A stretch of DNA of 37,878 bases from an uncultured bacterium (GTDB lineage Bacteria > Cyanobacteriota > Vampirovibrionia > Obscuribacterales > Obscuribacteraceae), in contig CAJXZK010000019.1 in NCBI GenBank assembly GCA_913063055.1, positions 1 to 37,878 on the forward strand, given 5' to 3'. Below, piece by piece: positions 2,922 to 6,304 of the stretch. A program made the translations under genes and the position numbers. The notes beneath the pieces were generated by a model. It did no database searches. It was not told where the DNA came from and saw only the letters and a list, made by a program, of their open reading frames with translations. Within the stretch, counting starts at the first letter, position 1. Every line of letters begins with the position of its first letter.

Positions 2922-5069
2922 TCAGCTCGCCATAAACCGGCTAGAAATAGCGGTCAAATCGAAGGGCGTGTCTTCAGCAAGAAACTTAGTGGTAGCCAAT
3001 TCTGCACTACTAGCTAACTGACCACGGGCCTCAGCGTGCAAAAGCAATAAGTCATAGAGACTCGGCTTGTTGAGATCAACCATTGACTTGAGCGACAATT
3101 GAATGCCATTCAAATTGCCGGCAATATTGTTGTACCAGTTAGGATTGCGAGTCAATGAAATATCAACCCAAATTACCTGCCGCTCTACTAAATCAAAAAT
3201 AGCCGGAATGGAAACCCTAGTATTGCCGCTAACATCTAATTTGTCTTGCACAGTTTTGGCTTCAAAAACCTCACCAGACTCCGGCTGTTCGCGGGCCATC
3301 CAACCAGCAAAGCACTCAGGCAAATCGCAAAATGGTTGCGCGGTATAACTCAATAGCGACATCACCACATAGCGACCATGATGTTTGAGCACTTTATCAA
3401 TAGAAATATCAATAAATTCGCTAGCACCTTCTGGAGCGTCAACAATATCGCCACTGTGACAACCGCCAAAATTCTTCAGATTGTAATAAGTGAGTGCATC
3501 AATAAAGGCAAAATTCTCATCAAACACAGCCGCTGACAAATCAATATCGGTGCGGTAGAGGCCGTTTTTCCACCAGGTGAAAAAACGCAGAACATTAGTA
3601 TCAGGCAAAGCCAACCTACTGCCGCGCGAGGTTGTACGAAGAGCTTTAGAAGCAGACCTTTGCGCAAACGGCACCATGAAATTCTTCAACTCTGGGTCGA
3701 CCCAGCAAGTACCCAGAGAAGGAAGCTTAGCGAAGCGCTCAAGCAAGGCTTTACGACAGAGTCCGGCGGCCAACTCACAAACGAGAGGCGGCAATCCCGG
3801 TAAGCAGTCAGGTATTGCCTGCGCTTTCGCCAGCTGCGACTTAGGGAAGAAAACCCGCAGTGGCCGCGGCTGCGCCCGGTTCTTAAAATGGTGCAAGACC
3901 TGCAACAGTACTGGTGTAGAAACCTTGTCGACAACTTTAGCGAAAGCGAATGCAACATCCTCCTGGTGGGTACCAGCAATACGCAGCAAGTGATCTAAAC
4001 GCCGAGCAAAATCTCCCGGTCTTGTTTTCAGCATAGCCACAGCAGCAGTAACATCGCTCAGCTCTAGGGCCTTCTCTAAGCGACTATTGAAAGTATTGGA
4101 GGGCAGGCCATTTCTCAAGATGTTGAAGGCTTCAAATGAACGTGGATATTGGTCTTTAAATTCACCCGGATGCAGTTTCTCACCAAGCCGAATCCATCGC
4201 TCTTTCCATCTCAGCATATCTTCAATTAAATTAGAACGACTCTCAAGCAAACTCAAAAGCAAGCGACGCACGCTACGCTTATAGGTCTTGAACTTGGCGG
4301 GCTCGGCTAAAGAGACGTCTCCGCCGCTCAAGGCAACAGCCAAACGCAGTACATCGGTAGCAGTATCGACATACTTGGCCACCAGATTAGCACTATCAGC
4401 GGTGCGCTCTATTAGCTGCGCTAAAATAAAAGCTTTATTCTCGCGGTGAGCTATTTGAGCGGGCAAGAACCGCTCAATATCGCCATCGAAGAAATCTATA
4501 TAAGCAACAATATCTTCTTTATCGGCAACAGAAATAGAACTATTAACAGAAAGCAACTGTCTAAATTGCAGCTCAAACTGCTCTAAGGTGGAAAGGGCAA
4601 GCGGCCGCAAATCAGGAGTTTCGGCAAGCGGTGCCCGTTGCGGAACAGGAATTAGACCAAAGAGCTTCTTTGGCTTAGCAGGCAAATATTTGCCACCACT
4701 AAAATAGTGCACCATGGCATTGAGATAAAGCTCCGCCTCACTCATATCCATCACTTGCTTAGGAAAGTCCGGATACATCGGCGTCAATTTTTGGTGAGCA
4801 CCTTTCTCTTTTGCTAAGCAGTCGAATAACTGTTTCTTCAAGTCAGCAAGTTCACTTAAACTAAGATGCTTGCAGGCGGCAATTAAATCAGCCGACATGC
4901 CAAACCCTAAAGCCTCTATAGTCTTCACGACTGTGGCCACATAGTGGCTAGGCAAAACCTCATTAGTAGAGGCCGGATTAAGTAAAACCTTCTTACAGCG
5001 CCGAACGAAAATCTTGTTGGCCAATTCAAGTTTTTGCGGCGAATATTCTTGCACCATGGCCTCGCACAA
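2922..5069 (-). CDS. MXAN_6230/SCO0854-like protein with C-terminal TerD-like domain
   Basis: 715 aa; EDMLRWKERWIRLGEKLHPGEF, RPGDFARRLDHLLR, then TDIDLSAAVFDENFAFIDALTYYNLKNFGGCHSGDIVDAPEGASEFIDI (TerD-like). Alternative start ATG at 5057. No obvious N-terminal RING cysteines. Confidence 0.7.
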   Translation of the reverse strand: MCEAMVQEYSPQKLELANKIFVRRCKKVLLNPASTNEVLPSHYVATVVKTIEALGFGMSADLIAACKHLSLSELADLKKQLFDCLAKEKGAHQKLTPMYPDFPKQVMDMSEAELYLNAMVHYFSGGKYLPAKPKKLFGLIPVPQRAPLAETPDLRPLALSTLEQFELQFRQLLSVNSSISVADKEDIVAYIDFFDGDIERFLPAQIAHRENKAFILAQLIERTADSANLVAKYVDTATDVLRLAVALSGGDVSLAEPAKFKTYKRSVRRLLLSLLESRSNLIEDMLRWKERWIRLGEKLHPGEFKDQYPRSFEAFNILRNGLPSNTFNSRLEKALELSDVTAAVAMLKTRPGDFARRLDHLLRIAGTHQEDVAFAFAKVVDKVSTPVLLQVLHHFKNRAQPRPLRVFFPKSQLAKAQAIPDCLPGLPPLVCELAAGLCRKALLERFAKLPSLGTCWVDPELKNFMVPFAQRSASKALRTTSRGSRLALPDTNVLRFFTWWKNGLYRTDIDLSAAVFDENFAFIDALTYYNLKNFGGCHSGDIVDAPEGASEFIDISIDKVLKHHGRYVVMSLLSYTAQPFCDLPECFAGWMAREQPESGEVFEAKTVQDKLDVSGNTRVSIPAIFDLVERQVIWVDISLTRNPNWYNNIAGNLNGIQLSLKSMVDLNKPSLYDLLLLHAEARGQLASSAELATTKFLAEDTPFDLTAISSRFMAS

Positions 5070-5084
5070 CTGGCATAAAAAGAA

Positions 5085-5145
5085 GCCGCAGAAAGCGAAG
5101 ACTCTAAATCATAGGTTTAGAAGGAAGAACCTTCATAGCCGCGGC
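5085..5145 (-). repeat. Copy A of a paired structured element (7-bp closing stem plus two internal hairpins)
   Basis: Plus strand GCCGCAG-AAAGCGAAGACTCTAAA-TCATAGG-TTTAGAAGGAAGAACCTTCATAG-CCGCGGC; identical to copy B outside the loop and arm substitutions; lies just upstream of the 715-aa CDS start. Confidence 0.85.
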
Positions 5146-5207
5146 ACTAAGTTCTATGCCCGCTGGCCCCAACGCTCAAACCATCAAGAATCAACCGCTA
5201 TTGCTAT

Positions 5208-5939
5208 CTATTTGGGCAGACTAACTTTTCCAGTTCCAGAGCAAAGGGGACAGGGTCCTTTATTAATTGGTCGACCATTAACGTACTCAATTACTTCACC
5301 CATATGGTCGTTACTCCAATATTCAGAGCCGCCTTTGCCCGCGGGGTCAAGATAAGGAAAAACCATCCAAACGAGGCGGTCGGGCTTGCCAGGCACGTCC
5401 ATTTTGCGCCAGCCCGGCGTTGAAGGTTTGAGACAATTACCCGGACAAATCCCCTTCATGTAGCTGTTTAAGGTAGCTGCTAGCCTCTGAGCGCGATTCT
5501 TGACCGAAATCAGCTTGCCTGTCTCACTAACTTTTTTGTATTGCTCAAGGGCTTTCTGATATTGATGCATTTCGTAGAAACAGTAACCTAAAAGTATGCC
5601 AGCTTCGCCGTCATCCAGAGGCGATTGAGCAGCCACAGCAAGGCTAGCTGCGGCGGCCGGATACTTCTTCTCCTGAAAGAGTTTGGCCCCCTTCTGATAG
5701 GTAGTCTTGAAAGCAACTTTTTCAGCGTCTTTTGGGGCGTTATTTTGCGGCTCAGCAGTCTGGGCTGACGCCGGTAAAAGAGAAGCAAACGGCAATAGCA
5801 GCAAAGTAGAGACTGCCAGTACCAATGCCAGTAGCAATGCTATGAACTTCAAATTATTGCCATTGAAAATGATTGATAAAAGAGGTGTCGCGGAAAGCGA
5901 AGACTCTAAATTGGAAATTTTAGAAGGAAGAACCTTCAT
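5208..5939 (-). CDS. Membrane-anchored/secreted TPR-like protein with C-terminal CxxCxGxG motif
   Basis: The ORF extends to 6125, but an internal ATG at 5939 (or TTG at 5852) better precedes the signal/TM segment NLKFIALLLALVLAVSTLLLLPFASLLPASAQT. TPR-like ALEQYKKVSETG; C-terminal CPLCSGTGK. Confidence 0.65.
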   Translation of the reverse strand: MKVLPSKISNLESSLSATPLLSIIFNGNNLKFIALLLALVLAVSTLLLLPFASLLPASAQTAEPQNNAPKDAEKVAFKTTYQKGAKLFQEKKYPAAAASLAVAAQSPLDDGEAGILLGYCFYEMHQYQKALEQYKKVSETGKLISVKNRAQRLAATLNSYMKGICPGNCLKPSTPGWRKMDVPGKPDRLVWMVFPYLDPAGKGGSEYWSNDHMGEVIEYVNGRPINKGPCPLCSGTGKVSLPK

Positions 5940-5948
5940 AGCCGCGAC
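5887..5948 (-). repeat. Copy B of the paired structured element
   Basis: Plus strand GTCGCGG-AAAGCGAAGACTCTAAA-TTGGAAAT-TTTAGAAGGAAGAACCTTCATAG-CCGCGAC; overlaps the likely 5' end of the TPR-like CDS. Confidence 0.85.
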
Positions 5949-6304
5949 TACAAATCTATACCCACTTCTAACACGAAGAACGACTTTAACAATTATTTTC
6001 CCAGAGCCATAAGCTGACGCAGTTCGCCCCCAAAGATCTCGCGGGTCAAACGCACTTGCCGTGCGCCCCGGGAGAAGTTCCATCACTAGCCAGCACCTTA
6101 AATGGCTTAAGAACAGCTTCGCCAATAAGCTTGATCATCTGCCACTGGAACAGTGGCTTCTGCAGCCATCAATGCTATTTTTTCTCCAGCCACGGCTGCC
6201 CGCCTCGGAACGTCCTGTTAACTGCATACTTGTTCACTGCAGACATGTTCACATGAGGGGCGACCAGAGTCACCGGTAAAAATACACAGCGGGCAACCCA
6301 CGAC

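Follow-up and report, generated by a model that had tools for sequence, protein, structure and literature searches.

A covarying hairpin RNA beside genes for MXAN_6230/SCO0854-like TerD proteins, a probable Y-RNA-like partner in bacteria and phages

Two copies of a hairpin RNA at an SCO0854-like gene

The window analyzed here is a 37,878-nucleotide stretch of DNA from an uncultured bacterium of the family Obscuribacteraceae (contig CAJXZK010000019.1, assembly GCA_913063055.1), which carries two copies of a short hairpin RNA element next to a gene for a RING-less MXAN_6230/SCO0854-like protein (positions 2922-5069, minus strand, start codon uncertain) composed of a helical domain and a TerD domain. 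Copy A (61 nucleotides, 5085-5145, minus strand) lies upstream of this gene, and copy B (62 nucleotides, 5887-5948, minus strand) lies upstream of a gene for a secreted-looking TPR protein (5208-5866, minus strand), which sits between the two copies and is kept with both of them in genomes of the same genus. The covariance model R1 scores the copies at 80 and 88.8 bits, respectively. They are placed 802 nucleotides apart, at the positions given in an earlier note on this DNA, and are the only two in the 5.7-Mb genome (395 contigs). The repeat blocks described there are likewise present, one of 23 nucleotides at 5116-5138 and 5919-5941 (chance expectation at three mismatches of 0.00) and one of 17 nucleotides at 5092-5108 and 5894-5910 (0.15), as are the 7-nucleotide arms with a C-G to U-A change and a pair that is G-U in copy A and G-C in copy B.

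The minus-strand folds of the two copies are better than those of shuffled sequences (z of -2.9 and -4.0) and form a single long hairpin with a 7-bp closing stem, a small internal loop (CUAU//UU), a helix of 9-10 bp termed helix 2, and the conserved segment UUCCUUCU. On the minus strand of copy B the closing stem is formed by the 5' arm GUCGCGG (5942-5948) and the 3' arm CCGCGAC (5887-5893), as judged from pair counts, and helix 2 by GAAGGUUCU (5929-5937) and AGAGUCUUC (5899-5907), as judged from covariation. The adjoining loop segment UCCUUCU (5922-5928) is invariant in 18 of 18 sequences and is followed by the variable loop. The equivalent 5' strand of helix 2 in copy A, also on the minus strand, lies at 5126-5134 and pairs with 5097-5105, again from pair counts. 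The three-way junction suggested in the earlier note is not supported, as its GAAGG/CCUUC hairpin has zero covariation across relatives, its UCUAAA/UUUAGA hairpin pairs no better than shuffles, and the two are mutually exclusive because U25 and C26 are common to both. Its description of a conserved, structured, gene-sense RNA with a free loop, covariation and no place in Rfam stands, and its suggestions of a mobile or REP-like (repetitive extragenic palindromic) repeat and of a purely cis-regulatory leader are not supported by the evidence given below.

Several other assignments were tried and rejected. Pairing of GAAGGU with a downstream ACCUUU is not preserved in relatives; a coding or upstream open reading frame is contradicted by the absence of the otherwise conserved AUG from L023 and by loop lengths (58-67 nucleotides) that are not multiples of three; and an integron attC-like or REP identity fails on the missing core motif and the presence of just two copies. 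The Rfam search of the window gives no family, and at the gathering cutoff no family is found for the hairpin RNA in 15 diverse loci, nor any by expectation (E) value in L136.

Covariation and conserved elements

A DNA search of 99 relatives adds 16 copies from 14 genomes, weak ones included and with one 18-nucleotide match in G080 set aside, and compensatory changes are evident in an alignment of 18 copies. All cells of the supported structure, comprising the closing stem, the internal loop and the GAAGGUUCU/AGAGUCUUC helix, are paired across the 18 sequences (100%), and shifting the pairing partners reduces this to 40-54%. Double changes occur at six pairs, with helix 2 contributing four of its nine; typical replacements for GAAG/CUUC are GGUG/CACC, GAUG/CAUC and GGAAG/CUUCC. 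The invariant elements are GGCUAU, UUCUUCCUUCU, AGAG and the start of the 3' closing arm, and the terminal loop varies freely. Covariation is very strong over 94 of the matches listed, in which pairing holds in 95.9% of cells and double changes are seen in 463, compared with 127 in shuffles. The core consensus is partly set by the seed pattern and is confirmed by loci selected on the protein; the E-values of the covariance models are based on a short calibration.

Promoter-like sequences

A GGGYA box is located exactly 15-16 nucleotides ahead of the first base of the hairpin in 14 of the 18 upstream sequences, compared with a mean of 0.13 and a maximum of 2 in shuffles. In most cases GTT[TCA] lies a further 17-20 nucleotides upstream, an arrangement that we take to be a sigmaB-type promoter. 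The window contains the -10-like boxes GGGCAT for copy A (5156-5161, minus strand, with GTTTGA at 5176-5181) and GGGTAT for copy B (5958-5963, minus strand), a separate sigmaB-like promoter for each copy, and the spacing of GGGYA places the predicted transcription start at or just before the closing stem. The genome encodes SigB/F/G-like sigma factors, the best scoring 204.7 bits, which is under the curated cutoff of 234.35.

Linkage to the SCO0854-like gene

Within the family the protein and the RNA occur together in all 15 genomes that encode the protein, and the RNA is found in none of the 35 genomes that do not. Fourteen of the 15 were identified with model R1. The other, G037, had been regarded as an exception with the protein and no RNA, which was overturned by six copies found with a second model, R2, situated 3' of its RING-bearing gene. 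The copies from the DNA search of relatives lie just upstream of a homologue of the 2922-5069 protein (38-95% identity), and in Obscuribacterales the RNA is 20-60 nucleotides from the gene start on the same strand. Across genera no gene other than the SCO0854-like gene is kept in the neighborhood. In the window a histidine ammonia-lyase gene (hutH, 1261-2907) is convergent with the SCO0854-like gene.

A search of GTDB genomes and IMG/VR with a degenerate core pattern (17 fixed bases) gave loci that are mostly metagenome contigs, and the counts are minimum counts. Among the matches listed, the protein gene is present in 74 of 87 loci selected on the RNA with R1 and is on the same strand in 73, with the RNA upstream in 58 of these and downstream in 15; of the 13 loci that lack the protein, several are truncated where the contig or locus ends. 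The hosts named for these matches include Bacillota, Verrucomicrobia, Acidobacteria, Bacteroidota, Proteobacteria, Cyanobacteria and Armatimonadota-type lineages. The reciprocal selection, on the protein alone, gives 256 R2 matches in 80 phage loci, all 256 flanking the gene and on its strand, with at least one match in 75 of the 80. The training set of R2 is partly derived from phages, and for this reason the strict core motif was also counted, giving 95 matches in 40 protein-selected phage loci (0.25 expected), all on the plus strand, 60 of them upstream and 35 downstream.

Among named records the RNA is beside the gene in 11 of 12 loci (Streptomyces, Variovorax, Vibrio, Deinococcus, Bacillus, Niallia and isolated phages), some of the genes being annotated as "MXAN_6230/SCO0854 family RING domain-containing protein," and the twelfth, phage RcXuper, has a YrlA-like match upstream of the gene. 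Whole-genome searches of 11 genomes return one to five matches each, mostly at the SCO0854-like gene. Copy number ranges from one to about eight per locus, and positions 3' of the gene, or flanking it on both sides, are seen in Lachnospiraceae, Niallia, Variovorax, Vibrio, other cyanobacteria and many phages. Many of the RNA-bearing phage loci hold tRNA arrays, and in phages the RNA is placed among tRNA genes. Two RNA-bearing phage loci also encode tmRNA (L274:2879-3192 and L359:1803-2219).

The SCO0854-like protein

Members of the MXAN_6230/SCO0854-like family have a helical domain followed by TerD, with or without a RING finger; the RING finger is absent from the window protein, which is about 700 amino acids long, and present in the G037 member. 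The window protein is a clear homologue of NF041916 (E of 5e-143), with a score of 478 of 600 bits that lies below the curated cutoff, and it also belongs to phrog_33734, a family of unknown function. Annotated Streptomyces members of NF041916 have the RNA just upstream. A confident AlphaFold2 model from 49 sequences (predicted local distance difference test 88, predicted template modeling score (pTM) 0.85) shows a helical N-terminal part leading into a TerD β-sandwich, and Foldseek matches the C-terminal half to the TerD structures 3ibz and 2qz7. Pfam TerD is significant in some members. An earlier model from 14 sequences (pTM 0.51) had no structural match, and the deeper model matched TerD alone. 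No nuclease domain is found in the protein with Pfam, and PADLOC has no match. Compared with the TerD proteins of tellurite resistance, the window protein differs in its helical N-terminal fusion, in the accompanying RNA and in the lack of a ter operon in the window.

tRNA-like modules and comparison with known Y RNAs

In the longest phage copies the terminal loop houses a tRNA-like module, composed of a T-arm (GGUUCGAAUCC), an acceptor stem capped with a short loop, and a D-arm (UAGCUCAGUUGGCAGAGC). A shortened anticodon stem connects the module to helix 2. Of 150 phage copies in an alignment, at least 11 have the signature of a T-arm or a D-arm. The Rfam model of YrlA (RF02553) scores the long phage copies at 30-43 bits (best 43.2, E down to 8e-8), all below the gathering cutoff of 69. 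Bacterial Y RNAs have a permuted tRNA layout in which the basal stem tethers Rsr/Ro60 and the tRNA-like end binds PNPase (PMC8394870), and their operon context has been described (PMC7790460). The hairpin RNA resembles YrlA in being a small RNA with paired ends, an internal loop and a distal effector module, in carrying the same permuted T-arm, capped acceptor and D-arm in some phage copies, and in adjoining its protein gene with an association with RtcB and RtcR. The closing stem that joins the 5' and 3' ends, as in YrlA, is present with covariation, and tethering of the protein by it is putative. The differences are a binding-stem motif of GGCUAU...UUCCUUCU...UUUCC, a partner gene that is SCO0854-like and not TROVE, the lack of the tRNA-like module in the window copies, and up to about eight copies per phage locus.

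The genome has a separate TROVE (Ro60) gene (G000:C32:27800-28306; L230, L319), where the hairpin RNA is absent and no Y RNA is recognized beside the gene. At L229 two matches to RF01656, the nematode stem-bulge RNA (37.4 and 31.3 bits, gathering cutoff 38), lie at 2576-2781 on the minus strand directly before a TROVE gene of the cyanobacterial phylum (859-2496) and are likely canonical bacterial Y RNAs. These share with the hairpin RNA a small stem-loop form beside a protein gene, but the hairpin-RNA model gives no match there.

RNA-repair genes in the neighborhood

RtcB directly follows the RNA in three loci without the SCO0854-like protein (L110, L125 and L165) and is also nearby in L129. 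TROVE is near the RNA in L132 alone, again without the protein, at a distance of 1.4 kb. On a Variovorax plasmid (L349, 1-5724) rtcR is four genes from a RING4/TerD gene that has two RNA copies 3' of it, a proximity suggesting control by tRNA-damage sensing. In two Bacteroidota-type loci (L132:4681-6328 and L197:4230-5875) the RNA stands ahead of a unit encoding a 184-amino-acid protein and an AbiEii-like nucleotidyltransferase, with no TerD protein.

Discussion

Copies A and B probably belong to a non-coding RNA of Y-RNA-like type whose partner is a TerD protein distinct from TROVE, and which acts in RNA quality control or repair. An RNA-protein particle is favored over a leader by the location of the RNA on either side of the gene, by the strand bias, by the multiple copies and by the YrlA-like module. 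A role in RNA repair or quality control during stress is indicated by the RtcB, RtcR and TROVE neighbors, by the placement among phage tRNA genes and by the sigmaB-like promoter. The two copies would be two genes, or processed or leader portions, of an RNA of ~62 nucleotides dedicated to the protein encoded at 2922-5069, each transcribed from its own sigmaB-like promoter, with transcription beginning on the first base of the closing stem or a few nucleotides ahead of it. The protein may use its helical N-terminal domain to grip the paired ends, the internal loop (CUAU//UU), helix 2 and the segment UUCCUUCU, leaving the variable terminal loop as a free effector end, which is small here and in some phages takes the form of a YrlA-like permuted tRNA mimic. 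On the model of Ro60 and its Y RNA, the particle might serve under stress to recognize, hold or present RNA that is damaged or structured, probably tRNA, and TerD would be a putative sensing or scaffolding module.

A number of observations weigh against this interpretation. Transcription of the hairpin RNA, its assembly into a ribonucleoprotein and its function are inferred from sequence, as is RNA binding by the protein. The window copies have neither the tRNA-like module nor an Rfam match, and both lie in likely 5' untranslated regions, where they may also act in cis. The hairpin RNA is absent from the canonical TROVE loci tested, and no significant TROVE similarity of the window protein is found with Pfam (49 members), hhalign (E of 0.39) or the Foldseek matches listed.

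The last result bears equally on the idea that the system is a true Ro60-Y RNA branch, with the protein a highly diverged TROVE and the RNA a diverged YrlA. The YrlA matches to phage copies, the shared modular layout, the RtcB, RtcR and TROVE neighbors and a weak in-register hhalign alignment to the TROVE N terminus give this idea some weight, but that alignment is not significant, Pfam TROVE is found in 0 of 49 members, Ro60 is absent among the Foldseek matches listed and YrlA scores stay below gathering throughout (43 of 69 bits), leaving a diverged TROVE doubtful, though the strongest of the alternatives. A cis-acting leader, in which binding of the gene product or of a ligand to a 5' hairpin mediates autoregulation as for ribosomal proteins, is unlikely. 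The short distance to the gene start on the same strand in Obscuribacterales, a pyrimidine-rich anti-Shine-Dalgarno-like loop and the second copy before the TPR gene in the same genus are as expected of a leader, but in roughly one in five RNA-selected loci and in many phages, as well as in the lineages named above, the RNA lies 3' of the gene or flanks it on both sides, which excludes a cis leader alone. Arrays of up to about eight copies, copies beside RtcB instead, and tRNA mimics in the loop also count against it. The sharpest form of this alternative is cis action in those bacteria with an upstream RNA, and cis and ribonucleoprotein roles may both occur together.

Tandem RNA copies beside a single protein gene on one strand, with horizontal spread and frequent occurrence in phages, also recall type III toxin-antitoxin pairs, in which RNA repeats neutralize an adjacent protein that is toxic once the RNA is lost. 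Such a pair is highly improbable here, as the protein, of about 700 amino acids, combines a helical repeat domain with TerD, no ToxN-like endoribonuclease or nuclease domain is found with Pfam or PADLOC, the latter giving no match at all, and the RNA units carry tRNA mimics and occur on both sides of the gene. The mobile or REP-like repeat and the simple local duplication considered in the earlier note have the 802-nucleotide spacing of two copies in their favor and a negligible probability: the genome has no further copies, both lie at the SCO0854-like locus as do those of relatives, and compensatory changes and linkage to one gene family across many phyla refute a repeat of either kind.

For the Y-RNA-like particle favored here, a broader and tentative proposal is a second, independent Ro/Y-like ribonucleoprotein class in bacteria and large phages, built from a TerD-type protein with one or many variant RNAs, in which the phage arrays, some with tRNA mimics, might serve as decoys or sensors against tRNA-cutting defenses. 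The RNA is apparently undescribed, and no RNA partner of the MXAN_6230/SCO0854 family is found in the literature searched, the coverage of which is incomplete, so an earlier description is possible. The particle would give this widespread, uncharacterized family (phrog_33734) a dedicated RNA partner, extend the bacterial Y-RNA world well beyond TROVE and link TerD stress proteins to RNA repair, and Streptomyces, Bacillus and isolated phages would provide tractable systems in which to test the roles of Y-like RNAs and of tRNA mimicry.
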